In this document: one piece after another, positions 31,077 through 51,962 of the stretch
Layout: every line of letters starts with the position of its first letter
How positions within the stretch are numbered: the first letter of the stretch is position 1
From: Sphingobium sp. AP49
GTDB lineage: Bacteria; Pseudomonadota; Alphaproteobacteria; Sphingomonadales; Sphingomonadaceae
DNA: 64,000 nt
NCBI RefSeq assembly: GCF_000281715.2
Contig: NZ_CP124576.1
Location: 2,053,501 to 2,117,500 of the forward strand
Direction of reading: 5' to 3'
The notes under the pieces: model-generated
What the model was told of the DNA's origin: nothing
The model's database searches: none
Seen by the model: the letters and a program-made list of their open reading frames with translations, nothing else
Made by a program: the position numbers and the translations under genes

Positions 31077-31080
31077 TCCC

Positions 31081-34162: not shown

Positions 34163-34205
34163 CCTCAATTCTCTCCCGAGCGCGTCACGGGCCATCCCCT
34201 CTTGA

Positions 34206-34226
34206 AACGCTACACATTGTAGCGTT
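34206..34226. promoter_or_regulatory. 21-bp palindrome, probable TetR operator
   Basis: AACGCTACA-CAT-TGTAGCGTT has perfect 9-base arms around a 3-base centre. It lies between the tetR start and the divergent 95-aa ORF/GH2 pair, the usual place and size for a TetR-family operator. Confidence 0.65.
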
Positions 34227-34297
34227 AATTTGCCACGACACATCGTCGCACACGTACGGCAACACACAAAAGATCAAGCAGGAGAGGATCACTAGGC

Positions 34298-34585
34298 ATG
34301 GATGCTCCACTTTTTCCGCCGGCCACCGATTTCGCCCAGCCACGACGCCTACCGCAAAGATTGAGCGCAGCCGAAACCCCGATTGCGATACTCAAGACCA
34401 TCCCGCAGGCATGGGCAATCGTCACAAGGGAGATCCCCGGCATGGATCGTCGGGTTGGTGGTGACCAGATCCGGCCCCACCTCAACAATTTCTCGCTAGA
34501 ATCGCTGCTGCCTTTCGGAGCGGTACCACGCGACGCTGTGGCGCGCATCGACAGCCAGTTCCTCGCACTGGGAGTGGAGTGGTGA
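34298..34585 (+). CDS. small conserved-looking protein coupled to the GH2 gene
   Basis: 95 residues; no family recognised. The N-terminus is Pro-rich (MDAPLFPPATDFAQP), followed by a compact segment with IPQAWAIVTREIPGMDRRVGGDQIRPHLNNFSLESL and ending VARIDSQFLALGVEW. AGGAGAGG stands about a dozen bases before the ATG. Its TGA overlaps the GTG start of the glycosidase (GTGGTGA), a coupling signature that argues it is real. It lies between a TetR operator and the GH2 gene, so the two are probably co-regulated. Confidence 0.6.
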   Translation: MDAPLFPPATDFAQPRRLPQRLSAAETPIAILKTIPQAWAIVTREIPGMDRRVGGDQIRPHLNNFSLESLLPFGAVPRDAVARIDSQFLALGVEW

Positions 34586-37080: not shown

Positions 37081-37265
37081 CCGACATTGTAGGAGAGACG
37101 GAGGTGGAGATGGGCGCGCGCCAATGACGACCCATTATTGCCATTCAGAGATCAATTATCGATGCCCAGCTGCAGAAGGTCAGCTTTTGCAGCTGGCACC
37201 ATCAGCAACGAGTGATGTTCGGAGCATTCTGGTTATACGTTCAAGCTCGACATGAAATAGGATCT

Positions 37266-39599
37266 TCAGTCGAGATTGATCCTGATACGGGAGATGTCGC
37301 CATCGAGCATGCCATGCGGCGTTCGATAGTCCGTCACCGGCACACCAATGTCCCGGCCGGTGTCCAGTGTTTCAGTGTTGCCGCTGGGCATAAGAATGCT
37401 TGAAGGCAAACGGCCTCGCGCGAGTTCTCCTGTTCCACTGCTGATGGACAGCTCGGCCGGACCAGCACGCCCCTCCACCGCAAACCGCATGCGCAGCGTT
37501 GTCGCGCCTTTCGGAAGCGTGGCATCGGCTCTGATGCGGATGATTTCCGCCGGGTCGGTCGAACGCGCCCAGACAAATGTGGGATGCCCCTCATCCAGAA
37601 AAAGGCTCCAACCGCCAGAGTGGCTGCCCAGCGCCAGGACAACGCCCGAAGCATCGGCCTTGTCGAGCACGATATCCGCATCGAGCGTGAAAGAACGGCC
37701 GATCAGGCGCGGCTCGGCAGATGCCGGCAGGCTGACATCCTTGCCCCAGTAATTGAACTGCTTGCGCCCACTGCCTTTCATCATCGCCGGGGTTGCACGG
37801 CCGCGGCCGGCGGTATGAAACAGCGGAAAGACATTGTTGCGCCTGGCCTCATCGCGCCAGGTTGCGATCATCGCCTGCACACGCGCAGGGTCTTTGGCCG
37901 CAAGGTCCGTCGACTGGCTGAAGTCATGATCCAGATCATAGAGCGACCATTGCAGCGCAGGCTTGGCCCCGTTCCGGGGGACCATCTCCCAGGATAGCCG
38001 ACCATCCTCGCCGCTCAGGAACCAGCCGTCCTGGTACAGGCCGACCTTGCCGCCCATCTCGAAATATTGCGTGCGCGGCTTGGCTGGCTCGCATCGGTTC
38101 AGGCTGGATAGCAGGCTCTGTCCGTCGATAGCCTTCTGCGCGGTGCCCAGCACCATAGTGGGGGCAGGCAGGTGGGTGGCCTCCAGAACGGTGGGGACAA
38201 TATCGATCAGGTGGCCGAACTGGCCGCAAACCGCGCCAGGATGCGCAACATGCCCCGGCCAGGACAAGATCATGCCATCCCTGATGCCGCCCAGCATCGA
38301 CGCATATTGCTTGCTCCAGCGCAGCGGCGCATTCATCGCCAGCGCCCAGCCAGCAGCATAATTGCCGTAACTCATCGGCCCGCCCAGCTTGTCGATGTTG
38401 GCGTGGGTGTAGACCTCATTTTCGTCATCCGCGCCCATCGCGCGCAGTTCGTTGAACGCCCCTTTCGGGCTGCCCTCCGCGCTGGCGCCATTGTCGCCGA
38501 TGATAACGGAAACCAATGTATGGTCGAGTTCGCCCATGCGTTCGAGTTCATCGAGCACGCGGCCAAACTGCTCATCCTGATAGGCAAGCTGGGCCGCAGC
38601 GACTTCCATCCCCCGTGCAGCATAGGCCTTGTCCTCGGCGGAGAGACTTGCCCATGCGGGGATTTCGGCGGGCCGCGGCGTCAGCTTCGTGCCCTTTGGA
38701 ACGATCCCTGCTGCAATCTGGCGTTTCAGGGTCTGTGCGCGCACCTCGTCCCAGCCCAGGTCGAACTGGCCCTTGAAGCGCGCAATATATTCGGCGGGTG
38801 CCTGATGCGGCGCATGGGTCGAACCGGGGGCGTAGTAGATCAGGAAGGGCTTGTCCGGGGCGCCGGCCTTTTGGTTGTGCACCCAGCGGATGAGATCGTC
38901 GGCAAGGCGCCGGTCCAGCATCTTGCCGCCGTTGCCGATGCCGCCTTCGTCCGGGTCAACCCGGCTGGTGCCGCGATACAGGTTGGGCGCGAACTGGTCG
39001 CTGTCGCCGGCGTTGAAGCCATAGAAATACTCGAAGCCCAGCCCGGTCGGCCAGTTGTCGAAGGGGCCAGCCTCGCTGCGTTCGTCGGCAGGCGTATTAT
39101 GATGTTTGCCGATCATGGCAGTGCTGTAGCCGTTGAGACGCAGCATCTGCGCAATGGTAGCCGTTTCGGGCAGGATGGCGCCGCCATATCCAGGAAAGCC
39201 GAGGCGCAGGTCGGAAAGATAGCCGACGCCTGCATTATGGTGATTGCGTCCGGTGAGCAGCGCTGCCCGGCTGGGCGAACAGATGGCCGTAGTATGAAAG
39301 CGATTGTAACGCTGTCCCATCATCGCCAGCCGCTGGAAGTTCGGCGTGGGTACCGGACCGCCAAATGTGCTCGCCATCGCGAAACCCGTATCGTCCGACA
39401 TGAATAGCAGAATATTTGGCGCCCCTTCTGGTGGGCGAACGGAGTGGAATGGCATGGGGGTCGAGTCTACGGCTTCTTCGGCAATGACGCCGGTGAAGAC
39501 AGGCGCAGGGATCGGCAGGACTGTGCGATCCTGCGCGAAAGCGGGGCCGGCGGCGATCATCGCCAGTGTCGCACAGGCGCGGTTGAAATAGCTCTTCAT
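37266..39599 (-). CDS. arylsulfatase, exported
   Basis: 777 residues. Signal peptide MKSYFNRACATLAMIAAGPAFA, cleaved near residue 22. FMSDDTG (Asp69, Asp70) supplies metal ligands, and ICSPSRAALLTGR with Cys107 is the formylglycine signature (C-x-P-S-R-xxx-TGR), so it needs a formylglycine-generating enzyme, none of which is encoded here. GDNGASAEG is the second metal site. The C-terminal ~150 residues form a beta-rich extra domain (lectin-like by appearance). It overlaps the stop of the upstream TetR gene by four bases, so its expression is coupled to that regulator. Confidence 0.92.
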   Translation of the reverse strand: MKSYFNRACATLAMIAAGPAFAQDRTVLPIPAPVFTGVIAEEAVDSTPMPFHSVRPPEGAPNILLFMSDDTGFAMASTFGGPVPTPNFQRLAMMGQRYNRFHTTAICSPSRAALLTGRNHHNAGVGYLSDLRLGFPGYGGAILPETATIAQMLRLNGYSTAMIGKHHNTPADERSEAGPFDNWPTGLGFEYFYGFNAGDSDQFAPNLYRGTSRVDPDEGGIGNGGKMLDRRLADDLIRWVHNQKAGAPDKPFLIYYAPGSTHAPHQAPAEYIARFKGQFDLGWDEVRAQTLKRQIAAGIVPKGTKLTPRPAEIPAWASLSAEDKAYAARGMEVAAAQLAYQDEQFGRVLDELERMGELDHTLVSVIIGDNGASAEGSPKGAFNELRAMGADDENEVYTHANIDKLGGPMSYGNYAAGWALAMNAPLRWSKQYASMLGGIRDGMILSWPGHVAHPGAVCGQFGHLIDIVPTVLEATHLPAPTMVLGTAQKAIDGQSLLSSLNRCEPAKPRTQYFEMGGKVGLYQDGWFLSGEDGRLSWEMVPRNGAKPALQWSLYDLDHDFSQSTDLAAKDPARVQAMIATWRDEARRNNVFPLFHTAGRGRATPAMMKGSGRKQFNYWGKDVSLPASAEPRLIGRSFTLDADIVLDKADASGVVLALGSHSGGWSLFLDEGHPTFVWARSTDPAEIIRIRADATLPKGATTLRMRFAVEGRAGPAELSISSGTGELARGRLPSSILMPSGNTETLDTGRDIGVPVTDYRTPHGMLDGDISRIRINLD

Positions 39600-40246
39600 G
39601 AATGGAGTTCCTTTGCCGCGGGGGCACCGAATGCGGCGGCGGCCATGACAATCGCATTCTCGAACATGTGGCGGGTGTTGCCGGGCGACACCCCGTCGTG
39701 ATCAAGCATCTGGATGGCGGTCGTGAGCATGCTCAAGACCAAGCGCAGCCGGCGATGGCCCTCATGGCGGGTCTCAGGCGGCAGACAGGCGACGAGCAAT
39801 TGGGTCACCCGCTCTGATTGCGGATAGTCTCCAACGACGAAGCCGCGTGCCGCAATCTTGCCGGAGCGTTCCAGCGCGCCCAGGAAGCGAACGAAGCTAT
39901 GCTGGCCATTGGCGCCGGTTTGCTCGAACAACGGCAGCGCAAACACGGTCATTAAATCGAGAATGGTGGGCGTTTCATCACGCACATCGAGAGCAGCCAG
40001 TAATGCACCGCGCCGAGCGTCGATGCCAGGCAGGCGACGGTGAAGGACTGCCTGGATCAGCCCGTCCTTGCTGCCAAAATGATAGGCCACGACGTTAGTG
40101 TTCAGCGCGCCGATTGCCGTCGCGATCTGCCGCGTCGAGGTCTTCTCCAGCCCCTCCTCGGAGATCAGCCGTTCCGCCGCATCGATGAGTGCATCGCGCG
40201 TCGCTTCCCGGCGCGGATCGTCACGTTGCCGCTTCAAATTCGTCAT
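39596..40246 (-). CDS. TetR-family regulator of the sulfatase
   Basis: 216 residues from ATG 40246, which has GGGGAGAG upstream; an open codon at 40294 adds unconserved residues. HTH: ALIDAAERLISEEGLEKTSTRQIATAIGALNTNVVAYHFGSKDGLIQAVL, the long-linker CerR/PsrA-like type of TetR. Four-base overlap with the sulfatase start makes a regulator-first two-gene operon. A candidate operator (AAATAA...TTATTT) lies 20 bases upstream. Confidence 0.87.
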   Translation of the reverse strand: MTNLKRQRDDPRREATRDALIDAAERLISEEGLEKTSTRQIATAIGALNTNVVAYHFGSKDGLIQAVLHRRLPGIDARRGALLAALDVRDETPTILDLMTVFALPLFEQTGANGQHSFVRFLGALERSGKIAARGFVVGDYPQSERVTQLLVACLPPETRHEGHRRLRLVLSMLTTAIQMLDHDGVSPGNTRHMFENAIVMAAAAFGAPAAKELHS

Positions 40247-40622
40247 CTCGCTCTCCCCATCATCTAAATAAGGCGAGTGAGTTATTTTATGCAATCTGTG
40301 AGAGAGATCGATTGAAATGCACCGTCTCAGCGATGTTTGAGCCTCACGTCAGCGCCAGTGACTGACGTGCGATGGCAAATAGCTGGCAGATGATGTGATC
40401 CGAGGGCTCAATGCTCGATATGTCAGCGGAAAGCATGAGGCTGTGGGATGGTCAGGCTGACAGATTTCGGCTTCCGTCGCCGACCCTTTGCAGCCGCTCA
40501 GGGTGCTAATCCTGATCCCCAAGTGCGGAAGGTCCGGTATTTTGGCATGTCGACCCTGGTACCGCCATTCAGCCTAGCACGGAGAATGGCAGTTGATGGC
40601 AAAAGCAGTCCCGGCAAGTCGG
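40247..40622. other. intergenic region with one possible operator
   Basis: AAATAA-GGCGAGTGAG-TTATTT at 40266-40287, an inverted repeat with 6-base arms, lies 20 bases upstream of the TetR start and may be its operator. From 40290 to the convergent LysR gene I see no gene; small open frames on plus (from 40448) have no family features. Confidence 0.4.
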
Positions 40623-41516
40623 TTACACGGGTGATTGTCGCGCCATCTCGATCAGGGCCCTGAAAGCAGCTGAAGCATTTCGCCGGCTAGGATAATAGAG
40701 GCACAAGGGTGCGAGCGGCGGCGTCCAGTCTTCCAAAACACGGATCAGGCGTCCCGCCTGGATGTCGTCCCGGACATCGATTTCCATGAAATAACCGATG
40801 CCGACATGATCGAGCACGGCGATGCGCGACAAGCTCGCCTCGTCCAGCGTTATGGGGCCGGAAACGTCGATTAAAACGGGCTGGCCGTTCTTCTCGAAGT
40901 GCCAGCGATGCAGCGCGCCGTTTGGCAGCCGGATGCGCAAGCAGGAGTGGTGAAGTAGGTCCGGGGGTGTGCGTGGTTTGTCGTTGGCCTCGAAATATTC
41001 AGGCGACGCCACGACGGCAAAACTGCGCGGAGGTCCGACTGGAATGGCGATCATGTCGGTCGGCACCAGGTTTGCGGTTCGCAATCCGAGGTCGAACCCC
41101 TCAGCGACGATGTCGACAATCCGGCCCTCGGTGACGAGATCGATATGAACCTTGGGATAATGTCGCAGGAACTTCAGCAAAAGTGGGCCGAGTATCTCCC
41201 GTGCGCCTGTGGCGAAGGCATTGATCCGCAGAGTTCCGGAGGGTGTTTCCTGCTGTGACCGAGCGGCTCCCATCGCTTCGTGGAGAGTGCTCACAGCGGG
41301 TCCAACCTGCTCGACGAAATTTCGTCCAGCATCGGTGAGGGACACGCTGCGAGTCGTGCGATTGAACAGTCGGACGCCAAGCTGCCCTTCCAACTTGCCG
41401 ATGGCATTGCTTAGCGCAGTGGTGGAAAGCCCCAGTTCCAGCGCTGCCGCGCGGAACGATGCCCGCCGCGCTATCGCGAGCACAGCGTCAAATTCGATCA
41501 AACCGTGTTTCGACAT
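40623..41516 (-). CDS. LysR-family transcriptional regulator
   Basis: 297 residues. [59 protein letters not shown], then the LysR substrate-binding domain ([42 protein letters not shown]). It closely resembles the LysR at 61582, particularly at LFNRTTRSV and the C-terminal [18 protein letters not shown] versus DEWTPPFAGLSLYFAGRR, so the two are paralogues. Divergent from the NTF2-SDR pair. Confidence 0.92.
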
Positions 41517-41561
41517 TGTCCCGCCTTTCGCAACGCCACATGCCGGTTTAGCCCGATTATC

Positions 41562-41572
41562 ACAATCATTGT
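41562..41572. promoter_or_regulatory. ACAAT-C-ATTGT palindrome in the lysR divergent promoter
   Basis: A perfect 5+1+5 inverted repeat in the 96-base divergent region, containing the T-N11-A type spacing preferred by LysR regulators. It lies about 40 bases before the NTF2-like gene. Confidence 0.4.
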
Positions 41573-41612
41573 ACGGCGCTAAATTCTCCTCGTCACCGCA
41601 AGGAGCATAGCA

Positions 41613-41942
41613 ATGCCGATCGAACTACCCGAACCCATCGCCGACTATGTCGCGGCCAACGCACGGCTCGATGCAGACGCCATGCTCAAGCCGTTTGCTG
41701 CTGACGCGGCTTTCCTGGATAATGGGAAGCGCTTTGAGGGCCACGACCAGATCCGGACCCTGTTCGAGGAAGAGGTCATCGCCGTGAAAGCCATCTTCAC
41801 ACCGGATGCGATCCGCCGCGAAGATGGTCTGGTCGTCGTCGAAGGCCCCGCCCATGGCGACTTTCCCGGTAGTCCCATCCGCTTCACCTACCGCTTCGCG
41901 ATCGAAGCCGATGCGATCAAGGCAGTGGAGGTCACGGCATGA
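41613..41942 (+). CDS. SnoaL/NTF2-like protein
   Basis: 109 residues forming one NTF2-like cone. [47 protein letters not shown] is the usual first half and [20 protein letters not shown] the last strands. Such proteins are polyketide cyclases, isomerases or ligand carriers; the activity here is unknown. AAGGAGCATAGCA precedes the ATG. Its TGA overlaps the SDR start by four bases, so the two were an operon under the divergent LysR. Confidence 0.87.
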
Positions 41943-42205
41943 CGATCAAGGCTGATCGGACCGAGTTCGCAGGAAAGCGCGTACTCGTCAGCGGCGGCAC
42001 CAAAGGTGCGGGCCGCGCCACGGTCGACCAGTTTCTGGCCGGAGGCGCGCGCGTCATCACCGCCGCGCGCGGAACGCCGGAGCCCATCGACGGAGTGGAG
42101 TTCGTCCAGGCCGACCTCGCAACCCCGGAAGGCAGCAAGGCGCTGGCGGATGCTGCTCTCGAACGCCTGGGCGGCATTGACATTCTCGCGCATGTCATCG
42201 GCGGT
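41939..42205 (+). pseudogene. SDR oxidoreductase, N-terminal fragment
   Basis: Starts TEFAGKRVLVSGGTKGAGRATVDQFL, a Rossmann nucleotide-binding motif (GGTKGAG), and continues through DLATPEGSKALADAALERLGGIDILAHVIGGSS, equivalent to the NNAG strand. Similarity ends near 42205, about residue 90, and the frame then runs in non-homologous sequence to 42319. The catalytic Ser, Tyr and Lys are missing. The break coincides with the start of VWA-gene sequence in another frame, so a deletion joined two genes. Confidence 0.8.
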
Positions 42206-43197
42206 TCGTCTTCATTACCGAAAATCCCGACCGATGTTTCGGAAAGGTCGAGCTGGAGAAGGCGGTGCTGGAGAAACGCGGAAGGCCGATCGGCACCGCT
42301 GTTCCGCCGACACGCGTGATCATCGCTATCGACGGGTCAGGTTCCATGGCCGGGGCGATCGGTGGCCAGAGCAAGCTTGAACTGGCGCGTCAGTCCGCGC
42401 TCGGCTTCATCGATGGTCTCCCGTCCACCGTCCAGGCTTCGCTGCTTGTGTTCGGCCAGCAAGGTGACAATAGCGAGGCTGGCAAGGCAAAGTCCTGTAG
42501 AGGCGTTGACGTACTCGCGCCGATGTCGATTGATCGGGCGAGGCTTACTGCCGCGGTGAAGGAAGTTCGCGCCATCGGCTGGACACCGCTCGCCGCCGGG
42601 CTCGAGCGCGCGCAGGTGCTACTGGACACTGCCGCGAAGCCCGGCGAACAGGTGATCTACGTCGTCTCCGACGGCAAGGAGACATGCGGCGGTGATCCGG
42701 TTGCCGTCGCGCGTCGAATAAATGGCGGCAACACACGGGCGGTGGTGAATATAATCGGTTTCGGACTTCCATCAAAGGACGCGGCAGCGCTCAAGGCGGT
42801 TGCAGATGCCGGCGGCGGCGGCTTCGTCAACGTCCAGACCCGCGCCGACTATGATCGGACCATCGCAATGGTGCGGGAGTCAAATCGTCAGTCGGCGAAC
42901 GCCGTCCGGACGAGCAATGCGATCAGCCGCAACGCGGTCAATACGTCCGACGTGGTCTCCGATGCCTCGCTGTGCATCAGCGACCTGGTAGATGGCGAGA
43001 GCAAGCGCATGAGCGATGATCTTTCAGCGCGATGGAAGCGCGGTGAGAAGGTGCCATTCTCCAGCGAGGCGTTGAGGCTCGCGCAGGAACGCCATCGCGG
43101 CCTCCTCGATCGTGCGGAGGCCTTTTCGAAAAAGCGTGGTAGCGACGAGGACGCGGCCAGTAGCGAAATGCGTAATGCGGAAAATGTTCAGCGCTGA
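42206..43197 (+). CDS. von Willebrand factor A domain protein, 5' end missing
   Basis: The VWA domain begins RVIIAIDGSGSMAG, a full MIDAS motif (DxSxS). It continues with VIYVVSDGKETCGGDPVAVARRI and VVNIIGFGLPSKDAAALKAVADAGGGGFVNV, typical of secreted VWA proteins. A ~100-residue C-terminal tail is helical and charged (ERHRGLLDRAEAFSKKRG). Upstream, in the same frame, FVFITENPDRCFGKVELEKAVLEKRG looks like genuine protein back to about 42206 with no start codon, where it meets the SDR fragment. If expressed at all, translation could start at a later codon such as CTG/GTG near 42265. The N-terminus, including any signal peptide, is lost. Confidence 0.7.
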
Positions 43198-43236
43198 AGT
43201 GCAATCAACCTCCCGGTGCGAAGGTAGAATAGCGCT

Positions 43237-43446
43237 TCATTTGGTCGCATATTGTCCGGATTCGGCTTGGAAGACATCGCGCGCGAAATTGCGGGCAGCC
43301 GTCGCAGTCTTGAAAAGTTCCGCCTGCAACTGGGATGTTACCAGCGGATAGCCTTGAGAATTATGGCGCGTCTCTCGCGTCGTGAGACGGTAATTCCCAT
43401 CCTCATCCGTGTTGATCAGAAAGGGTTTAACATTTGCACGGGACAT
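43237..43446 (-). CDS. small protein of unknown function (69 aa)
   Basis: MSRANVKPFLINTDEDGNY followed by a basic-polar segment and ending ARDVFQAESGQYATK. AGGAGCGCCT stands directly before the ATG, a good ribosome binding site. Composition is ordinary and cytosolic, with no cysteine and no membrane segment. No family recognised. It follows a 42-residue peptide gene by 60 bases on the same strand, so they may be one mini-operon. Confidence 0.6.
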   Translation of the reverse strand: MSRANVKPFLINTDEDGNYRLTTRETRHNSQGYPLVTSQLQAELFKTATAARNFARDVFQAESGQYATK

Positions 43447-43506
43447 AGGCGCTCCTGGTTGAGGGACAGCAGGCCGGCGACGCGAATGCTCCGCCGGTAG
43501 AAGAAG

Positions 43507-43635
43507 TCAGCCCAGCACAGCGGCAACGATCCGCTTAAGTTCGCTGCTGGACAGGGTAGCGGACAACGGCTGATGCGACGGGTGGCCCGGTGGCAGCAGG
43601 CTCGCGCCTTTGCCGGCCTTGGATATGGTTTTCAT
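43507..43635 (-). CDS. 42-residue peptide with leader-like C-terminal motif
   Basis: Too short for routine gene calling. ATG 43635 has AGGA eight bases upstream. The product is MKTISKAGKGASLLPPGHPS then HQPLSATLSSSELKRIVAAVLG. The segment LSSSELKRIVAA resembles the LSxxEL-xx-I-xx leader pattern of small ribosomally made peptides, but hardly any core follows it, so it may instead be a helical signalling or regulatory peptide. No modification enzyme is adjacent on the same strand, although a DUF692 enzyme is encoded 4 kb away. Function unknown. Confidence 0.5.
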   Translation of the reverse strand: MKTISKAGKGASLLPPGHPSHQPLSATLSSSELKRIVAAVLG

Positions 43636-43753
43636 GAAGTTGGTCCTAGCGGCATCATGCCGCATCAATTGGGCTGTTGCCCGGAAATGATGGGTGGGAT
43701 TGAGCCGCAGTGCACCGGTAGGGCCTCCAGCCCATATGGTGCGCTACAAGCCG

Positions 43754-44079
43754 TCACGACGACGCCCGATTCTTACGTGCGAGATAGCGCGCATCGCGCG
43801 CGGCCTTGCGCTCGGCTTCGGTCAGAACCGGCTTTTGCTTTACTGCTGCTGCGGCGGCCGCTTCCTGCGCCTTCGCATGCTTGAGCGCCTTGGCAGCAAG
43901 CAAGGCATGCTGCCGCTTTTCCCGCTTGGCTGCTTCTTTGGCCAGCCGACTGGCCAAGCGGCCGGCGGCAGCCGCCTCATCTATTGGCGGCTTGGCCCGC
44001 AGTTGATCGAGTGCCCCTGTACGAGCCCGCGCTGCGGCACCGATGCGCACCTGAAAGCCTGGCTCCTTGTATTTTTCAT
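43754..44079 (-). pseudogene. DUF6481 family protein with apparent one-base frameshift near its start
   Basis: An Ala/Lys/Arg-rich helical protein (about 107 aa) ending LTEAERKAARDARYLARKNR, a DUF6481 hallmark; central LDQLRAKPPIDEAAAAGR also fits. The open frame begins only at GTG 44050. Upstream in that frame KYKEPGFQ is the family's usual N-terminus, and ATG 44079 precedes a run of five A (44072-44076). With one more A the reading MKKYKEPGFQVRIG would be intact. So either a single-base deletion or a sequencing error breaks the start; translation from the GTG remains possible. Confidence 0.65.
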
Positions 44080-44781
44080 GCGGTTGGAAAATGTCCTGTT
44101 ATATATGTGTATTGAAATGGCCGGCCCGGCCACATGATGTTACGGCGTGGCCCGTCCAGACTATCCGATGGACACCGACCGTTGGGAAGAGAAAGCCCCA
44201 GCCGCGGATGTCGATGGCGATTTCCATATCGCTGCTTCACGGTGAGAAGCGGCGTCTGCGCCATGGAAATCTTTGCTTTGGCGATCAGAAAGACTGTCCT
44301 TATCCCATCATTCATTCGGACGCGCGACCATTCGCGCGTCCTGGCTTCATGAGGGCAATAGTGGACAAAGGGAGAGCCGTGGCGGCCCAATAGCCGTCAA
44401 AGTCGACGTTCAGCGACATGCTTGTAGCACGTATCGTCGAATATTGAAACTCTGCGTGGAAGCAAGGCGCTCCGCCTGTCTCTATCGCAGCAGCGCATCG
44501 GAGCCGGCCTTTCACAGTCAGCTTCGAGGGGGCAATTCCAATAGCTGACTGTCCGGACCGCAGAGCCAAAAAATGGCCGCCGAACGGCCGCCATGGGTCG
44601 GTTGTGATGCATCCGACTGCCCGGCCGTGGGATCATGCCGTCGTCCCAACCGGCTTGGTCCAACGACAAATTTTCATATAATCTGGCGTTCGCGGTCGGT
44701 GCTGCGAAGCTGGCCTCCCGTGAACGCGGTGCGGGAGAATATCGGTTGCTGTCAGGCAAAATTTCTGACGCTCCCTGTGCC
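44080..44781. other. 700-base region without a recognisable gene
   Basis: No open frame has family-like features on either strand. Distinct elements: an AT-rich patch TTATATATGTGTATTG near 44099; an inverted repeat ACAGTCAGCT (44514-44523) / AGCTGACTGT (44543-44552) with a 19-base loop; and a tandem GGCCGCC pair near 44577-44595. It may hold the DUF6481 promoter or an RNA gene, but nothing decides this. Confidence 0.4.
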
Positions 44782-45234
44782 TCACATCCTTGATCGGGGA
44801 AAAATGAGCGCATCCATGGAGAATATGCCGCCACCATGGGCGACAAGGGGAAGCAGGATCGCGGCCCAGCTGAGATGAGTCGGCCATGCGTCGGGATAGA
44901 CAAATGTCTGGATGACCAGGGTCATGCCGAGCAGGGCGAGTGCCGAAAGCCGTGTGAACAGGCCCAGCAACAGCAATATCGGGAAGAGATGCTCCGCCCA
45001 GGTTGCCATTGTTGCCGCAAGCTCGGGCGGAACGATCGGCAGAGCATATTCGGTGCGGAATAATTCATATGTGCTGTCTGTGATGGTGATGATACCCTCT
45101 ACCTTCGTTCGTCCCGACAGGAAGAATATGGCGGCAATGCCCAGCCGGGCGACCAGCAGCAATAGCGCATCGAGCAACTGCGCCTTGATCCGTCGGACGG
45201 TGGTGTTGCGCATTTGCAGGGGCATGTTCATCAT
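44782..45234 (-). CDS. DoxX-family membrane protein of the bufferin locus
   Basis: 150 residues with four hydrophobic helices. [24 protein letters not shown] is the characteristic DoxX opening, then [36 protein letters not shown] with the conserved E-H and R residues. DoxX proteins are regularly encoded with bufferins and DUF692 enzymes, probably handling redox partners or peptide export at the inner membrane; the exact role is unknown. ATG 45234 has GGAGACGA in front. It is downstream of bufA1 on the same strand, so it falls under the minus-strand SigF-type promoter. Confidence 0.86.
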
Positions 45235-45251
45235 TCGTCTCCAGGAAGGTT

Positions 45252-45277
45252 GGCCGGGACGGAATGGTGCCCCGGCC
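45252..45277 (-). terminator. hairpin between bufA1 and doxX
   Basis: GGCCGGG and CCCGGCC pair around a 12-base loop in the 63-base gap. No T run follows. It may lower doxX expression relative to the abundant peptide or stabilise the bufA1 message. Confidence 0.45.
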
Positions 45278-45297
45278 GCCATGATCAGTCCTTGGGA

Positions 45298-45573
45298 TCA
45301 GGCCTTGGGGGAAAGCGCGCCGTTGCCCTTGGGCGTCTTGATCGACGTGCAGGTGCCGGCCTTCACCAGTTTCCAGGCATTGCCCTGATAATCGACCTTC
45401 GACGTTCCCGCACAGCTAGTGCCGGCACCGGCCGCGCAGTCATTCTTGCCGGCGAGCGAGACGCCGTAGCATTTCTCCATCTTCGGCGTCGTTTCTGCAT
45501 GGGCGGACGCGGCGAGCGTGGTCGCCGAAGCGATGGCGATGCTGGCGGCGAGTGCCGCATGGGTGGTACGCAT
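45298..45573 (-). CDS. bufA1: bufferin BufA1 (DUF2282 periplasmic Cys-rich RiPP precursor)
   Basis: 91 residues. A Sec signal peptide ([20 protein letters not shown] then AASAHA) is followed by the mature [20 protein letters not shown] segment. Cysteines at 35, 46, 54 and 75 match the four-Cys DUF2282 family, with the EKCYG and GKNDCA motifs. Such bufferins are modified on cysteine by DUF692 enzymes and bind copper or related metals in the periplasm; the modification is known from family members, not seen here. The start at 45573 fits the signal peptide; the open frame to 45693 covers promoter DNA. The SigF-like promoter at 45681-45707 is about 110 bases upstream. Confidence 0.92.
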
Positions 45574-45680
45574 GATGATGATGTCCTCTTCGATCCAGCG
45601 CCTCTGCGCGCGGCCCGGACACAGGGCCGGGCCGCGCGGTGACCGGGGAGGAGGCGGGAAGCCCGTGTCACATTGGCAGG

Positions 45681-45707
45681 TTCGGGGAAGCACAAGCTGC
45701 GGTTACA
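45681..45707 (-). promoter_or_regulatory. SigF-type ECF promoter for bufA1-doxX
   Basis: On the minus strand TGTAACC (45701-45707) is followed by exactly 16 bases and CGAA (45681-45684). This is the GTAACC-N16-CGAA pattern reported, as I recall, for SigF in Caulobacter crescentus, and it is repeated at 45739 and 47024. Confidence 0.82.
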
Positions 45708-45738
45708 ATCGAACGGCGTAAAAATTATCCGTCGATGC

Positions 45739-45765
45739 TGTAACCGATGGTCGGTCCGGCCCGAA
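45739..45765 (+). promoter_or_regulatory. SigF-type ECF promoter for sigF-nrsF (autoregulation)
   Basis: TGTAACC (45739-45745), 16 bases, CGAA (45762-45765), ending 20 bases before the sigF ATG. With the minus-strand copy it forms a back-to-back pair whose -35 elements are 31 bases apart. Confidence 0.83.
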
Positions 45766-45785
45766 CATGCGGGCGAGGAGATTGA

Positions 45786-46325
45786 ATGCAGACCACAGAG
45801 GAGCATCTGCGCGCGTTGATGATCGATGGGCTTGACGGCGATGCCGCCGCCCATGCGGCATTGCTGCGCCTGCTTGTTCCGCTGCTGCGGGGTTTCTATC
45901 GACGCCGTGTTCGCGGCGCCGACGACGATGTCGAGGATATGGTGCAGGACACTCTTATTGCCGTTCACACCCGCCGCGCGACCTACGATCGCGGGCGTGC
46001 CTTCACCGCCTGGCTCTATGCAGTCGCCCGTTACAAGATGATCGACCATTTCCGCCGTGTCGGCAGATTGTGGCCGATCGACGATCTGGAAGACTTGCTG
46101 GTCGCCGACGAATTTGAGGCAAGCAGCATCGCAAAGCTCGACATACACGATCTTCTGGAGCAGTTGCCGCCCAAGCAGGCGCGGATGATCCGCGCCACCC
46201 GGCTGGAGGGATTGAGCGTCGCCGAAGCGGCAAGCGCGGAAGGCATAGGCGAATCCGATGTGAAGGTTTCGGTGCATCGCGGGCTGAAGGCGCTGATGGC
46301 ACGGGTGCAGGGGGCGATGCGATGA
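45786..46325 (+). CDS. sigF: ECF RNA polymerase sigma factor SigF
   Basis: 179 residues: sigma-70 region 2 with DDDVEDMVQDTLIAVHTRRATYDRGRAFTAWLYAVARYKMIDHFRR, and region 4 with LEQLPPKQARMIRATRLEGLSVAEAASAEGIGESDVKVSVHRGLKAL. It directs polymerase to GTAACC/CGAA promoters. GAGGAG precedes ATG 45786. Its TGA overlaps the nrsF ATG by four bases, the standard sigma/anti-sigma coupling. It sits inside the bufferin locus it is predicted to control. Confidence 0.93.
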   Translation: MQTTEEHLRALMIDGLDGDAAAHAALLRLLVPLLRGFYRRRVRGADDDVEDMVQDTLIAVHTRRATYDRGRAFTAWLYAVARYKMIDHFRRVGRLWPIDDLEDLLVADEFEASSIAKLDIHDLLEQLPPKQARMIRATRLEGLSVAEAASAEGIGESDVKVSVHRGLKALMARVQGAMR

Positions 46326-46963
46326 ACACGGATGATCTGATCCGGCATCTTGCCAGTGATACTCACCCGGTAGCCCGAAACAGCGTCGCGCGACGATTGG
46401 TTATCGGTATCGTCGCTGGCGGGATCGCATCAGCGCTTCTCATTCTGGCGTCGATCGGTGTCCGCCCGGATCTGGGCATCGCAATGCAGGGCACGTCCTT
46501 TTGGGTGAAATGGGGCTATACCTTCTCCCTGTCGATCGCCGCGCTGATGACCACGGCCCAACTCGCACGCCCCGATAGCGGTCGATTGCGCGGATTGTGG
46601 GTGCTTGCAATACCTGTCCTGCTTCTTGCGGCGGTCGGCCTGCTCGAACTGGCGCGCACGCCCTCGTCGCAATGGCTGGCAATGTGGCTCGGCCATAGTT
46701 GGAAGAGTTGCCCCTGGCTGGTCCTGTCGCTGTCGGCCCCGATCTTCGCCGGTTTGCTATGGTCCTTCCGCAGGCTTGCCCCGACCCGGTTGCGCGCGGC
46801 CGGAGCGGCCGCTGGGCTGTTGGCGGGGGCCTTCGCGGCAACAGTCTATTGTATCCACTGCCCCGAAGTGTCGGCGATCTTCGTCCTGACCTGGTATTCG
46901 CTGGGAATATTGCTCGCGACCTTGCTCGGCATGCTGGTCGGGCCGCGGCTGTTGCGCTGGTGA
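46322..46963 (+). CDS. nrsF: membrane anti-sigma factor NrsF (DUF1109)
   Basis: 213 residues, six hydrophobic helices after a short cytosolic N-terminus (MNTDDLIRHLASDTHPVARN), the DUF1109/NrsF layout. It holds SigF at the membrane until heavy-metal stress. Cysteines at 130 (HSWKSCPW), 177 and 180 (YCIHCPE) are placed like the two cysteines that, as I recall, are required for metal response in Caulobacter NrsF (near 131 and 181). This supports redox or metal sensing by a Cys pair. It overlaps sigF by four bases and is followed by the third SigF promoter and bufA2. Confidence 0.9.
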   Translation: MNTDDLIRHLASDTHPVARNSVARRLVIGIVAGGIASALLILASIGVRPDLGIAMQGTSFWVKWGYTFSLSIAALMTTAQLARPDSGRLRGLWVLAIPVLLLAAVGLLELARTPSSQWLAMWLGHSWKSCPWLVLSLSAPIFAGLLWSFRRLAPTRLRAAGAAAGLLAGAFAATVYCIHCPEVSAIFVLTWYSLGILLATLLGMLVGPRLLRW

Positions 46964-47023
46964 AGCGGAAGCCGCGCCATTGCGCGGCATGTTGCCATCG
47001 GTTCGGTAAATTTCTGCCGCCCC

Positions 47024-47050
47024 TGTAACCGGGGGCCGCTCCAGACCGAA
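47024..47050 (+). promoter_or_regulatory. SigF-type ECF promoter for bufA2-bufB-bufC
   Basis: TGTAACC (47024-47030), 16 bases (GC-rich), CGAA (47047-47050), 44 bases before the bufA2 ATG. It is the third exact copy of the motif in 1.4 kb. Confidence 0.83.
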
Positions 47051-47094
47051 AGACAGGGGCCAGATTGGCTTAACATTCTTTCGGAGAGATCATC

Positions 47095-47364
47095 ATGCTC
47101 ACCTATAACAGCGGCATTGGCATGGCTGCTTCGGCGGCCGCCATCGCGATCGTTTCAGCAGCAGCGGCCCCGGCCGGGGCGCAGGACAGCGCGGATACGA
47201 AAGTCGTTCACTGCTACGGCATCAACAGCTGCAAGGGCACGTCGGACTGCAAGACCGCCAGCAACGAATGCAAGGGGCAGAACGTCTGCAAGGGGCATGG
47301 TTTCAAGGCCATGACCGTCAAGGCGTGCAAGGCCGCCGGAGGCAGCCTGACCGAGCCGAAATGA
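47095..47364 (+). CDS. bufA2: bufferin BufA2 (Cys-rich periplasmic RiPP precursor)
   Basis: 89 residues. A signal peptide ([23 protein letters not shown]) is cleaved near residue 29. The mature part has six cysteines (40, 46, 52, 59, 65, 78) in a repetitive pattern: [16 protein letters not shown], then [14 protein letters not shown] and [19 protein letters not shown] is typical of the second bufferin class. GGAGAGATCATC precedes the ATG. A 7-bp hairpin separates it from bufB, so peptide mRNA is probably made in excess of the enzyme. Metal bound and modification are inferred from the family. Confidence 0.92.
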
Positions 47365-47371
47365 CGTTTCA

Positions 47372-47401
47372 CTGCCCGGCGTGCACAGGCGCGTCGGGCA
47401 G
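47372..47401 (+). terminator. intercistronic hairpin between bufA2 and bufB
   Basis: CTGCCCG (47372-47378) pairs with CGGGCAG (47395-47401), with an inner GCG/CGC. It lies eight bases after the bufA2 stop, with no T run: probably a partial terminator or 3'-end stabiliser that sets peptide-to-enzyme ratio. Confidence 0.55.
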
Positions 47402-47425
47402 CCCTAATCAGCAGGGAGTGTACCC

Positions 47426-48256
47426 ATGATCCCCTCCTTCTTCGGTTTCGGACTTGGCCTGCGCAAACAGCATTATGCCGACTTTCTGGACCATCGCATT
47501 GCGGTCGATTTTCTTGAGGTGATTTCCGAGAATTTCATGATCGACGGCGGTCGGCCGCGACATATTCTGCGCGATATTCGTGCCCGCTACCCCGTCGCCC
47601 TGCATGGCGTGTCCATGTCCATCGGTTCCGCCGACGGACTTGATCGGGCCTATCTCACGCGGCTACGCGCGCTTGTCGATGATATCGAGCCGCTGTTCGT
47701 GTCGGACCATCTCAGCTGGTCGCGGATCGAGGGCTTCAGTTCGCACGATCTGCTGCCGCTGCCCTACACGCAGGAAGCATTCGATATCGTCAGCTCCAAT
47801 ATCGACCGCGCACAGAACGCGCTGGGCCGTGCGATGCTGATAGAGAACCCGTCGACCTATATTGATTTCGCTCCGGCGGACATGACCGAATGGCAGTTCA
47901 TCGACGCCCTGTGCGCGCGAACGGGCTGCGGACTGCTGCTCGATGTCAACAATGTGTTCGTCAGCGCCAGCAATCACGGCTTCGACCCTGTCGCCTATCT
48001 CGACGGCGTGCCGCATGACCGCGTGCGGCAGATTCATCTCGCCGGGCACAGCCATGGCGACCATCTGCTGATCGACACGCATGACCAGGCGGTGCCTCGG
48101 TCCGTGTGGCAACTCTATGCGCATGTCCTGCCGAAACTTGGACCGGTCGCGACGATGATCGAACGCGATGACGCCATCCCGCCGCTGGCCGACCTGCTGG
48201 TGGAGCTTTCCACCGCGCGCGGGATATCCGCCGGGAAGTTGGAGGAAGCGGCATGA
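47426..48256 (+). CDS. bufB: DUF692 multinuclear non-heme iron oxidase BufB
   Basis: 276 residues, TIM-barrel DUF692/MNIO. These enzymes oxidise cysteines of peptide precursors (oxazolone or thiooxazole formation) with a partner protein. Metal-ligand segments are all present: FLEVISENFM (Glu35), VALHGVSMSIG (His60), FVSDHLSW (His95), SSHDLLPLPYT (His107), LIENPSTY (Glu140), LLDVNNVFVSASNHG (Asp173, Asn176, His184), IHLAGH (His204, His208), IDTHDQAV and MIERDDAIPPL. It overlaps bufC by four bases and shares the third SigF promoter with bufA2. It is the only MNIO in the locus, so it must serve both BufA1 and BufA2 if both are modified. Confidence 0.95.
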   Translation: MIPSFFGFGLGLRKQHYADFLDHRIAVDFLEVISENFMIDGGRPRHILRDIRARYPVALHGVSMSIGSADGLDRAYLTRLRALVDDIEPLFVSDHLSWSRIEGFSSHDLLPLPYTQEAFDIVSSNIDRAQNALGRAMLIENPSTYIDFAPADMTEWQFIDALCARTGCGLLLDVNNVFVSASNHGFDPVAYLDGVPHDRVRQIHLAGHSHGDHLLIDTHDQAVPRSVWQLYAHVLPKLGPVATMIERDDAIPPLADLLVELSTARGISAGKLEEAA

Positions 48257-49029
48257 GCCTGCTGGCGCTTCAGCGCGACATGCGAGACTGGCTGCTACGG
48301 GAAGACATGGCTGCTGCCGATCGCATCGGTGCAGAGGCCGGGCCTGGCCTTGCCCTCTATCAGAATAATTACCGCACCCAGCTTGTCACCTGTCTGGAAG
48401 TCAGCTTTCCGCGAACCCGTGCGTGGATCGGTGAGGATATGTTTCTTCATGCCGCCGTACATCACATCGACAGCGTCCCGCCGAGCAACTGGACACTAGA
48501 CGCATATGGACGCGATTTTCCGGCAACACTTGCACGGCTTCACGCTGCCAATCCCGAGATAGCGGAAATCGCTGGCATTGAGCTTGCACTGGAAGAGCTA
48601 TTCGTCGCAGCCGACAGCCCCGCCGTTCGGCTGGGCGGTTTGGGCAATGTCGACTGGGATCGCGCGGTGTTGACATTCGCGTCGTCGGTCGACCTTATAC
48701 ACCTCCAAACCAATGGCTTTGTCATATGGTCGGCTCTGGTTGATCAGAAAGAACCACCCGCGCCGCAATATCTGGACATGCCCGATATCGTCATTTTGTG
48801 GCGTCAGGGCGAGCAGTGCCGCATCAGGACTATCGACGATGCCGAGTCGCAGGCGCTGATCAAACTGCGTCACGGCATGACATTCGGCGCATTGTGCCGT
48901 GACATCGCACTGTCGCTCGGAGAAGAGGCTGGCATGACGCTTGTTGGACGGTGGCTGGGCTTATGGCTTTCCGATCATATAGTGGTTGCCATAGACGATC
49001 ACGGGCAAGCTTCGTCGCCGTGCTTATAG
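48253..49029 (+). CDS. bufC: DUF2063 MNIO partner protein BufC
   Basis: 258 residues. The N-terminal DUF2063 domain (LLALQRDMRDWLLRED, GLALYQNNYRTQLVTCLEVSFPRTRAWIGEDMF, LDAYGRDFPATLA) is the usual precursor-recognition partner of DUF692 enzymes. The C-terminal half has a mixed alpha/beta region ending in a helical segment. ATGA overlap with bufB (48253-48256) means equimolar synthesis. No terminator is obvious downstream. Confidence 0.92.
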   Translation: MSLLALQRDMRDWLLREDMAAADRIGAEAGPGLALYQNNYRTQLVTCLEVSFPRTRAWIGEDMFLHAAVHHIDSVPPSNWTLDAYGRDFPATLARLHAANPEIAEIAGIELALEELFVAADSPAVRLGGLGNVDWDRAVLTFASSVDLIHLQTNGFVIWSALVDQKEPPAPQYLDMPDIVILWRQGEQCRIRTIDDAESQALIKLRHGMTFGALCRDIALSLGEEAGMTLVGRWLGLWLSDHIVVAIDDHGQASSPCL

Positions 49030-49217
49030 TCAGATGTTAAGGTTGTGTTTTGAAGATACGACTACTGCGGCTCTCTTTGCAGAACGGCAAAATTGTTCGC
49101 CAGTTTGCCGAAAAGGCGGAAGGTCTGCATTTTGGGCGCCGGACTCTGGCTCTGAGCGGCTGATAAGGGGCGTTCCAGGCTCTCCTACGCCCAAGCGAAC
49201 CCATCCGCCAACAGCCG

Positions 49218-51962
49218 TCACGAAGAAGCCAGATCACCGGCGGCCCGCAACTCCCATCCGGCAGCGCCTTGCCGACGGGAGAGCGTGATAGCGCCATCCA
49301 AGAAGGAAATTGCAGTTGCGCTGTCTTCCCGCGCGTTTGCGACCCTAGCCTTGATCCGCAACAGTTCCGGCATCAGGCATTGTTCGCCATTCGCCTCGCA
49401 CCGCTGGATGGTGGCGTCGATCACATTGCCAGCCTCCGTGAAACGCGAGTCGAACATCAGGCCCTGGGCCAGTGCGATGGAAAAAGGCGTCGTCAGCAGA
49501 TCATAGCGGGCAGCGCGTAGCCGGACGAGACATTGCTCGATGGCGGCCAGTGCGTCGCCACCTGCTTGCCCGCGCAGGATCGCGAACTCGCCGGCAAATC
49601 CGCTGGCGGCGGCGATATAGGGACCGAGCGCATTGGCTTCGGCGCAGTCGGCAAAGGTGGCGAGCGTTTCCTCCGCAGCTGCAAAATCCATCATCCAGCT
49701 GTGGATTGACAGCGACCAGATCAGCGCGATGCAGAGCGTCACGGGATGATTGAGCGTCGCGGCTTCCTCGACGGCCTGGCGCGCCAGCGCCCTGGCTCGC
49801 TGTTCATCACCGGTCAGCCAGAGCGTGCGGGCCAATGCGATGATCGAGCGATTGCGATGGTCGAAGCCATAGCGGACGGTCCGGCTGCGCAGCGATGGAG
49901 GCGAGCAAGCAAGGGACATGTCCAGATCAGCACGCGCCTGAATCTGGTTGCCGGCCAGATGGTGCGAGATGCCCGACAGGGAATAGGCGACGCCGATCGC
50001 CTCATCCTCGCCAATCGCTTCCGCTATTTCGATCGCTCGTTCCGCATGGTCCATTGCGACCTGATATTCGCCGATCCGCTCATGAAAAATGTGCAGTCGG
50101 CCGAGAATGCGCAACTCGCTCCAGCGATCCTCCAGCCGCCGGGCGATTTCCAGCGCGCGGTCGAGCGCTTTGCCGACTTCCGGTCGGTTGCCGCGGGTGA
50201 ACATCAGCGCGATGGCCAGCGCGCCCTGCAATTCCAGCTCGATCGCGGTGCCGCGTTCGCTGTCCGCCATTTCGGCAAGCGCCCGGCTGCACCAGTTGCG
50301 GCATTCGATAAGGTGCGAGAGATTGAGGAAGACCGGCGCACTGGCAGCGGCAAGGCGCACGGCGATGCGCCGATCCCCGTCTTCGCCAAAGGCCCAGTCG
50401 AGCGCGCTGCGGATATTGCCCAGTTGCTGCCGCAAGGGGCGCTGATCCTGAAGGACGTCATCCTCCTGCGCGAGCAGGGCTTCCAGTTCCGCCAGATAAT
50501 AGGCAGCATGGCGCCGGGCATTGGCATGGAAATCCGACTGCCCACGGGCGAGCAGATGCTGACGCCCATGGGCGCGGGTCATCTCCAGGAGGCGATAGGT
50601 GCCCGCGCCACGCATCCGATTGGGCGCGATCAGCGACTTGGCGACCAGTTGATCGACGGCGGCCGCGATATCGTCCGCGCCCACCAGCGCATCGGCCACC
50701 ACCGCCAGCGCCGCGTCGATCGAGAAGGGGCCGACGAAGATGGCGAGCCGCTCCAGCACGATCCGCTCGACGTCGGGCAGGAGGTCATGGCTCCAGTCGA
50801 GCGTCGCCTGCAACGTCTGCTGACGCGGCAGGGCGGTGCGCCGCCCCGGCCACATCAGGCTGAAGCGTTCGCCCAGTTGCCGGGCTGTCGCTTCCAGACC
50901 ATGGGTCGCGGCGCGCACGGCCGCCAGCTCGATCGGCAGGGCCATGCCGCCCAGCCGGGCGCACAGATCCCCGATCAGGCGCGCATCGCCTTCATCCACC
51001 TGGAACAAGCTGTCGGCCGCGCTCGCCCGTTCCAGGAACAGCTCAATCGCGGGATAGGCGCGCAATTGTGTAAGCGTCAGAGCTTCGCCATCGTCGGGAT
51101 AGCCCAGCGCGTCGAGGCGATGGACGTGTTCGCCACGCACCCGCAACGGCTCGCGCGAGGTGGCAAGGATGCGCACTTGCGGCGCCGCGTCGATGATATG
51201 TTCGACCAGTTCGGCGGTGGGGCCGATCAGATGTTCGCAATTGTCGAGCAGCAGCAGAAAGGATTGATCGCGCAGATGGCCCAGGATCACCGCCAGCGGA
51301 TCGTCGCTCTGCACGGTCAGGCCCATGGCGCCGGCGATCATCGGCCGCACCAGGCCGGGGTTTTCCAACATGCTGAAATCGACGAAGGCGACGCGATTGG
51401 CGAATTGTGGGGCGAGGGCGTGGCCGATCTCGATCGCCAGCGACGTCTTGCCGACCCCGCCGGCCCCGACGATGGTGAAAAGGGGGGTGTCTGCAACCCG
51501 ATCCTGCAACAAGGCCAGATCATCCGAGCGTCCGATCAGATGGGGCAGGCGGGGCGGGATATTATGCGCTGGCGCCAATGGAACGGCTGCCGCCTGCGCA
51601 GGGGACGCCATATTTGCAGGGCTCTGCACCGCGACCGGGGCGACGAAGGCATAGCCGACCCCGACCTGGGTCGCGATGTAGCGCGCGCCATCGGTGCCTT
51701 CGCCCAGCAGCTTGCGCAGTCCCGCCATGTGGAAACGCAGGCTGCCATCCTCGACCACCACATCGGGCCAGACGCGCTTGAGCAGATCGCGCTTGGAAAG
51801 GATTTGGCCCGGTTGTTCGGTCAGCACCACCAGCAGGTCGAAGGAGCGGCCGCCAATCTCCACGGGCATGCCGTCGCGGGTGAGCAGCCGTTCGGCCGGC
51901 AGTAGCGCGAAGGGGCCGAAGCTGCGCCGTTCGCCCAGAAGCTGCTTCTCTCCGTCCGCCAC
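49218..51962 (-). CDS. winged-helix regulator with NTPase and TPR domains
   Basis: 914 residues. An OmpR-type winged helix at 1-110 (FGPFALLPAERLLTRDGMPVEIGGRSFDLLVVL then YIATQVGVGYAFVAPV) is followed by a STAND-like NTPase: LIGRSDDLALLQ, Walker A IVGAGGVGKTSLAIEI (about residue 164), Walker B FLLLLDNCEHL, and ILATSREPLRVRGE. The C-terminal ~450 residues are TPR-like helices. Such proteins are ligand-gated transcription activators. It is encoded head-to-tail with a thioredoxin-like gene and beyond that a divergent epoxide hydrolase-ohr-hydrolase operon whose promoter region holds 20-bp-phased TAACGG repeats, likely targets. CGTTAG also occurs upstream of this gene at 52020. Confidence 0.85.
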   Translation of the reverse strand: MADGEKQLLGERRSFGPFALLPAERLLTRDGMPVEIGGRSFDLLVVLTEQPGQILSKRDLLKRVWPDVVVEDGSLRFHMAGLRKLLGEGTDGARYIATQVGVGYAFVAPVAVQSPANMASPAQAAAVPLAPAHNIPPRLPHLIGRSDDLALLQDRVADTPLFTIVGAGGVGKTSLAIEIGHALAPQFANRVAFVDFSMLENPGLVRPMIAGAMGLTVQSDDPLAVILGHLRDQSFLLLLDNCEHLIGPTAELVEHIIDAAPQVRILATSREPLRVRGEHVHRLDALGYPDDGEALTLTQLRAYPAIELFLERASAADSLFQVDEGDARLIGDLCARLGGMALPIELAAVRAATHGLEATARQLGERFSLMWPGRRTALPRQQTLQATLDWSHDLLPDVERIVLERLAIFVGPFSIDAALAVVADALVGADDIAAAVDQLVAKSLIAPNRMRGAGTYRLLEMTRAHGRQHLLARGQSDFHANARRHAAYYLAELEALLAQEDDVLQDQRPLRQQLGNIRSALDWAFGEDGDRRIAVRLAAASAPVFLNLSHLIECRNWCSRALAEMADSERGTAIELELQGALAIALMFTRGNRPEVGKALDRALEIARRLEDRWSELRILGRLHIFHERIGEYQVAMDHAERAIEIAEAIGEDEAIGVAYSLSGISHHLAGNQIQARADLDMSLACSPPSLRSRTVRYGFDHRNRSIIALARTLWLTGDEQRARALARQAVEEAATLNHPVTLCIALIWSLSIHSWMMDFAAAEETLATFADCAEANALGPYIAAASGFAGEFAILRGQAGGDALAAIEQCLVRLRAARYDLLTTPFSIALAQGLMFDSRFTEAGNVIDATIQRCEANGEQCLMPELLRIKARVANAREDSATAISFLDGAITLSRRQGAAGWELRAAGDLASS

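Follow-up and report, generated by a model that had tools for sequence, protein, structure and literature searches.

A putative SigF-controlled bufferin locus in Sphingobium sp. AP49, with precursors of two families beside a single MNIO

Bufferins, ribosomally synthesized and post-translationally modified peptides (RiPPs) that bind copper, form a very large class of recent discovery, and raise the question of how their maturing enzymes, the multinuclear non-heme iron-dependent oxidative enzymes (MNIOs, formerly DUF692), choose substrates. Published bufferin clusters keep to a strict bufABC gene order. A survey reports genes for a sigma factor and for NrsF in Buf1 but not in Buf2 clusters, and reads tandem precursors as a hint of multiple substrates for some MNIOs (PMC12452194). 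For Caulobacter, one account gives the SigF consensus as GTAACC-N16-CGAA, reports that two conserved cysteines of NrsF matter for the control of SigF, and lists both precursors as DUF2282 proteins (PMC3511200). What, then, is to be made of a locus where one enzyme stands beside two precursor families? Such a bufferin locus, of seven genes, occupies positions 44782-49029 of the window (the whole stretch of 64,000 nucleotides that was analysed) from Sphingobium sp. AP49. It qualifies the generalisation that sigma factor and NrsF genes go with Buf1 and not with Buf2. In it a single enzyme also occurs naturally alongside two kinds of peptide, which, together with relatives that have one precursor or two enzymes, makes substrate range directly testable; the pairing could show how one enzyme serves both.

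Read leftwards, the minus strand carries bufA1 (DUF2282) and then doxX; read rightwards, the plus strand carries sigF, nrsF, bufA2 (six-Cys), bufB (MNIO) and bufC (DUF2063). All seven genes which the first-pass annotation had placed here are present on the strands it gave, as judged by Pfam and NCBIfam matches. Its idea of one modifying enzyme is on firmer ground than it could know, as in profile searches of the AP49 genome, a single contig of 4,506,188 bases, the bufB product is the sole PF05114 (MNIO) match; DUF2282 too has one match. The features are:

44782..45234, minus strand: doxX, DoxX-family membrane protein, downstream of bufA1 (PF07681, 66.1 bits)
45298..45573, minus strand: bufA1, Buf1-type (DUF2282) precursor of 91 amino acids with 4 Cys (PF10048, 86.7 bits, cut-off 22.4)
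45681..45707, minus strand: predicted SigF promoter of bufA1-doxX, TGTAACC-N16-CGAA
45739..45765, plus strand: predicted SigF promoter of sigF-nrsF, TGTAACC-N16-CGAA
45786..46325, plus strand: sigF-like extracytoplasmic function (ECF) sigma factor, 179 amino acids (PF04542, PF08281; NF009191)
46322..46963, plus strand: nrsF-like anti-sigma factor, 213 amino acids (PF06532, 254.5 bits), with Cys130 and Cys180
47024..47050, plus strand: predicted SigF promoter of bufA2-bufB-bufC, TGTAACC-N16-CGAA
47095..47364, plus strand: bufA2, Buf2-type precursor of 89 amino acids with six Cys (NF050166, 109.7 bits, cut-off 60)
47426..48256, plus strand: bufB, MNIO maturase of the Buf2 clade (PF05114, NF050167)
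48253..49029, plus strand: bufC, DUF2063 partner protein (PF09836, 62.6 bits, cut-off 27.2)

We consider it reasonably probable that this is a SigF-controlled dual-precursor bufferin locus in which one BufB-BufC pair serves both precursors and metal releases the sigma factor. NrsF would hold SigF at the membrane until, by extension from Caulobacter, the two conserved NrsF cysteines were acted on by a thiophilic metal (excess copper being the likeliest) and SigF was freed. SigF would then fire three promoters of the same motif, those of bufA1-doxX, of sigF-nrsF (self-amplification) and of bufA2-bufB-bufC. One BufB-BufC complex would oxidise cysteines, probably to thiooxazoles, in both BufA2 and BufA1, and both precursors would exit by the Sec route and bind metal in the periplasm. 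DoxX may have some redox role. The locus itself is a genuine and conserved form of bufferin cluster, and its gene set is beyond chance, since many other genomes repeat it next to their MNIO genes.

The composition proposed in the first pass, two precursor families with one MNIO, its partner, DoxX and SigF/NrsF, is borne out by the family matches, the curated Pfam cut-offs being passed for DoxX, DUF2282, Sigma70_r2 and Sigma70_r4_2, NrsF, MbnB_TglH_ChrH and DUF2063. BufA1 has the DUF2282 domain and four conserved cysteines of a Buf1 peptide, the cysteines lying behind a hydrophobic N-terminus, and its tail is of the class common to hybrid loci. BufA2, with NF050166 above its cut-off and six cysteines, is of the Buf2 type; it gave no Pfam match up to E 0.1. 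The hydrophobic N-termini of both have AxA-like ends, as judged by eye, and both may be exported by Sec. BufB scores 361.4 bits for PF05114 (MbnB_TglH_ChrH) and 376.2 for NF050167 (BufB; cut-off 310). The residues reported as needed for the activity of HvfB, N175, D242 and H244 (PMC13419390), correspond in an alignment with 3BWW to N175, D217 and H219 of BufB, if HvfB and 3BWW are taken to be offset by one residue, as we infer. All three are unchanged across 18 aligned MNIOs; the DUF692 ligands that the first pass had looked to are thus in place. An aspartate follows the catalytic base (ERDD, D248-D249), a feature tied to Cys-Lys (Buf2-type) MNIOs (PMC13097082). A search with BufC for a C-terminal RiPP recognition element (RRE) fold gave no PDB sequence match up to E = 1. 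SigF has Sigma70_r2 and Sigma70_r4_2 domains (53.0 and 48.0 bits) and passes NF009191 (179.1 bits, cut-off 171). NrsF reaches 174.3 of the 300 bits required by the equivalog NF042994, so being a family member and not the named equivalog, and the DoxX product 55 of the 80 bits required for HvfX (NF050144); because these cut-offs were missed, the names given to both products go no further than the family. The doxX start is likelier near 45234, preceded by GGAGA, than at 45282 (spacing judged by eye), and the bufA1-doxX gap is 63 or 15 bases depending on the start chosen. There are four-base overlaps between sigF and nrsF and between bufB and bufC.

How good is the case for the sigma factor? Control of the locus by SigF, which the first pass had proposed, is well supported by sequence and fits three exact promoters. 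TGTAACC-N16-CGAA, the Caulobacter consensus plus one base, occurs exactly three times in the whole genome, always at the locus, each time upstream of a separate operon and in the right orientation, where about one exact N16 match would be expected by chance at an assumed 64% guanine plus cytosine (GC). The published ten-base form has four exact genomic sites, three of them at the locus. Over 61 loci (60 from relatives, and AP49) the exact motif was found 58 times, against 0 in 738,815 bases for a scrambled control; 21 of the matches were assigned to Buf2, 20 to Buf1, 6 to SigF, 5 to other locus genes and 6 to none, and 15 of the 61 loci are without a match even to looser patterns. The columns of Cys130 and Cys180 each hold cysteine in 97 of 98 NrsF rows.

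Within the family, 60 MNIO matches were found in 48 of 149 genomes, and the stretches around the 59 outside AP49 were fetched and their precursors typed by motifs. One arrangement (I), with NrsF, SigF, DoxX and Buf1 read leftwards in that order on the page and Buf2, MNIO and BufC read rightwards, is present in 15 genomes, in one of them cut by a contig end; a further genome, G036, has the precursors and MNIO of arrangement I with no regulators or DoxX nearby. The order of AP49 (arrangement II) accounts for nine loci in eight genomes, with a tenth, in G031, seemingly split over two contigs (L135 and L184). The canonical order Buf1, MNIO, BufC, DoxX, SigF, NrsF, all on one strand, is represented by 11 loci, 3 with tandem Buf1. 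A tree of 57 of the 60 MNIO genes, the other three being too short, separates a Buf2/hybrid clade (33 rows, 96/84), which includes BufB of AP49, from a Buf1 clade (19 rows, 96/86). At 28 of the 34 places with a Buf2-clade MNIO (the 33 tree rows and the truncated gene of L182) a DUF2282 (Buf1) gene is adjacent, and three of the six others are near contig ends (L129, L135, L136). Such a pair is found in 27 genomes; 19 of them gave no further MNIO match, and in one of the other eight, G018, the two matches resemble halves of one gene. MNIO matches are present in 44 of the 46 genomes with DUF2282 and in 4 of the 103 without it, the two exceptions among the former having the lowest DUF2282 scores; part of this co-occurrence is explained by co-transfer of one locus.

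Buf1 peptides by Buf2-clade MNIOs have a C-terminal tail of their own, TPKGxGSL-like, while those by Buf1-clade MNIOs mostly end in GGSL. Exceptions are L258 (GGSL by a Buf2-type MNIO), L138 (a variant), L161, L177 and L178 (other tails), and G020, with a TPKG-tail Buf1 ahead of a Buf1-clade MNIO. A lysine after the second Buf1 cysteine was considered as an adaptation to a Buf2-type enzyme and rejected, for it is absent in AP49 and present alongside a second MNIO in L194 and L266; among arrangement II loci it occurs in 7 of 9 from family genomes, 4 of 5 from plasmid records and 21 of 24 named ones. In a tree of NrsF, for which 85 of the 98 rows were taken, the first in file order, arrangement II falls in one clade and arrangement I with canonical Buf1 in another (each 100/100), which implies that regulators of two lineages have become linked to similar structural genes. 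Directly downstream of an arrangement II bufferin locus in a genome of the same genus (G076) is a second sigF-nrsF pair (L127:9766-10985), whose NrsF (L127_9766) groups with the other NrsF clade.

Beyond the family, the named loci are the best 80 of at least 580 confirmed stretches, a sample that leans to near relatives. With two typings joined, 64 have both precursors, 12 Buf2 only, 2 Buf1 only and 2 neither, where L251, L264 and L269 hold an untyped precursor; the Buf1 motif typing used here misses some Buf1 genes (L130, L137, L142). Loci with both precursors span Alpha-, Beta- and Gammaproteobacteria. Lysobacter has the AP49 gene order, and in Pseudomonas, Cupriavidus, Dyella and Massilia both precursors are on the MNIO strand; in five Massilia loci a single MNIO shares its strand with both, bufC and doxX being present too, and in L235 the two precursor genes abut. 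An apparent ‘Buf2-clade MNIO with Buf1 alone’ class in Massilia and Luteibacter was discarded, a divergent Buf2 being present in at least L231, L235, L242 and L244. Among the matches listed, the closest MNIOs are those of Sphingobium abikonense (86%) and, from a plasmid of 1.25 Mb, Sphingobium sp. V4 (90.6%). Of 360 matching plasmid records 10 were examined, and 5 have the AP49 order; in the three of these five that are annotated (Sphingomonas sp. R1, S. paeninsulae and Novosphingobium sp. EMRT-2) bufA2 is called a hypothetical protein. The first pass knew of no description of this exact composition in a sphingomonad: it is not rare, since numerous sphingomonads have it, as do replicons catalogued as plasmids, although our literature search found no paper describing it, nor any on MNIO precursors in sphingomonads. 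Among side observations on relatives, Asticcacaulis excentricus pASTEX01 (L194) carries two complete back-to-back bufferin clusters, each with its own MNIO, and two successive NrsF genes. In L160:3572-6963, L159:3509-6910 and L140:5944-7696, MNIO-BufC pairs are preceded by an open reading frame (ORF) of 237-274 amino acids that has no Pfam match and carries the motif NDC-x-SLGSCA-x-PINAERF and, C-terminally, TACG-SG-SGAGGC; in L160 this class gives a weak BufA2 match (20.4 against 60 bits), and further upstream is a ferritin-like protein (PF12902). These frames possibly encode another type of MNIO substrate.

Does one enzyme serve both peptides? Two genomes of one genus, G041 and G121, bear on the matter. 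Nested inside the arrangement I/hybrid clade and lying outside the 42 genomes with a BufA2 match, they keep MNIO and BufC, with no stops, beside Buf1. Both genes look to be under purifying selection: the proportions of differences at nonsynonymous and synonymous sites (pN and pS) are 0.164 and 0.76 for MNIO and 0.288 and 0.73 for BufC, with synonymous sites near saturation. An exact SigF motif precedes the MNIO in G121, and one with a single mismatch, judged by eye, in G041. From these two genomes, the recurrent pairing and the single MNIOs it is therefore argued that one Buf2-type MNIO-BufC pair is likely shared between BufA1 and BufA2. In its wider form, with somewhat better than even confidence, the proposal is that one such pair matures TPKGxGSL DUF2282 peptides and six-Cys peptides to give a two-part periplasmic metal buffer, and that the pairing has moved across proteobacterial classes and become connected to two SigF-NrsF lineages.

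A number of findings weigh against all this, and several of them favour instead the possibility that BufB-BufC modifies BufA2 only, with BufA1 an unmodified cysteine peptide, or the remnant of a lost second cluster that bore an MNIO, kept for thiol metal binding or for the company of doxX. BufB D249 fits Cys-Lys (Buf2) substrates (PMC13097082), and BufA1 has alanine, not lysine, after both central cysteines. The bufABC order does not hold for bufA1, which is divergent and has sigF, nrsF and bufA2 between it and bufB. A second MNIO is present in the same stretch in Asticcacaulis, G020 and five named loci, and double clusters stand back to back in Asticcacaulis excentricus (L194), G020, L273 and L275, so that today's pairs may go back to a double cluster, Buf1 having perhaps been served at first by a separate MNIO; the pairing may outlast the loss of that enzyme, and a Buf1 such as BufA1 may now go unmodified. 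G041 and G121 each have a second DUF2282 gene elsewhere, and one of these (L117), away from any MNIO match, has the same central cysteines, from which it follows that conserved cysteines prove nothing. The published survey, for its part, describes considerable fractions of the precursors as lacking MNIO genes (PMC12452194). We regard modification of BufA2 alone as rather unlikely: G041 and G121 have kept MNIO and BufC with Buf1 and no BufA2 match, few genomes with DUF2282 (2 of 46) give no MNIO match, and the pairing of precursors persists across many genera and gene orders. On the control side, allowing spacings of 14-20 gave five sites (two extra, with spacings of 18 and 20) against 21 for the reversed control, the mismatched and loose motifs were not enriched genome-wide (111 against 240, and 450 against 851, in the reversed control), and four of the nine arrangement II loci (L126, L150, L151, L157) have no motif match. 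As the mismatched motif is not enriched, the SigF case rests on exactness and position, and a wider SigF regulon, sought by loosening the motif, was dropped, its matches being fewer than those of the reversed control.

The stimulus also has its alternatives. Copper as such might not be the signal: stress that oxidises thiols, or envelope stress in general, might free SigF by oxidation of the NrsF cysteines, with the peptides as sacrificial thiols or binders of several metals. It is in keeping with this that Caulobacter NrsF-SigF answers chromium and cadmium, which induce the SigF regulon there, with two NrsF cysteines mattering (PMC3511200), that the Caulobacter regulon is reported to include a system repairing oxidised methionine (PMC8224329), and that a Brucella ECF system is reported to regulate hypochlorous acid resistance. 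Nevertheless, agents making reactive oxygen species are reported not to induce Caulobacter SigF-dependent genes (PMC3511200), and the sigF mutant is described as copper-sensitive and its regulon as copper-induced (PMC8224329); we take the stress explanation to be improbable, and by that Caulobacter analogy copper is the best supported metal and our best guess. As for two independent and complete units that lie side by side by chance, the divergent transcription of bufA1-doxX and the sigF side, and the use by the two arrangements of NrsF from two separate clades, are what could be said for them. However, no separate MNIO match for bufA1-doxX exists in the genome, and the neighbourhood is kept in relatives, both precursors occurring in 64 of the 80 named loci, so chance neighbourhood is strongly disfavoured and very improbable indeed.

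Some features of the surroundings deserve mention. Directly after a tRNA-Met (30842-30917) the GC content drops from about 0.65 to 0.55-0.62, recovering near 50 kb, and the bufferin locus sits in this low-GC segment (30842-50000), which may be acquired DNA. None of the 40 window ORFs scanned by Pfam, out of 61 called, is an integrase. Integration at the tRNA-Met was rejected as there is no second copy of the tRNA end in the genome, and for that reason the segment is only noted. Bordering the locus, at 49218-51962 on the minus strand, is a gene for a 914-amino-acid protein with OmpR-type DNA-binding and TPR matches over cut-off and nucleoside triphosphatase matches below it. At 62684-62816 on the plus strand a Group II intron domain (RF02003, 102 bits) lies just before a TonB plug-domain ORF at 62939.

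How does the locus stand beside what has been described? The word-start ‘sphingo’ is absent from the main text of PMC12452194, whose authors may have counted loci like that of AP49 as Buf1 clusters. The gig operon of Cupriavidus metallidurans and Legionella, called a homologous cluster and reported as induced by gold and copper (PMC8224329, PMC5413113), is likened here by description only. The Caulobacter bufferin 1 cluster and SigF-NrsF regulon (CC3252-CC3257; CC2905-CC2907) involve the same families, SigF consensus and two-Cys NrsF, and there too SigF is reported to control two operons of precursor, MNIO and DUF2063 (PMC3511200, PMC8224329). Caulobacter, however, has two MNIOs, one per precursor and in separate operons, whereas AP49 has one MNIO beside both; NF050166 (BufA2) had no match in 14 control genomes, Caulobacter among them, so the six-Cys family was not confirmed for the second Caulobacter precursor. 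The canonical sphingomonad Buf1 cluster shares with AP49 the DUF2282 precursor, MNIO, DUF2063, DoxX, SigF and NrsF, but has a Buf1-clade MNIO, a Buf1 tail of the GGSL type and no Buf2. With the Buf2/Cys-Lys captophorin clusters (bufA2B2C2) AP49 has in common the six-Cys precursor directly before MNIO and DUF2063, and the aspartate after the catalytic base; those clusters are, as the survey describes them, without sigma factor and NrsF genes (PMC12452194), whereas in AP49 sigF-nrsF is directly upstream.

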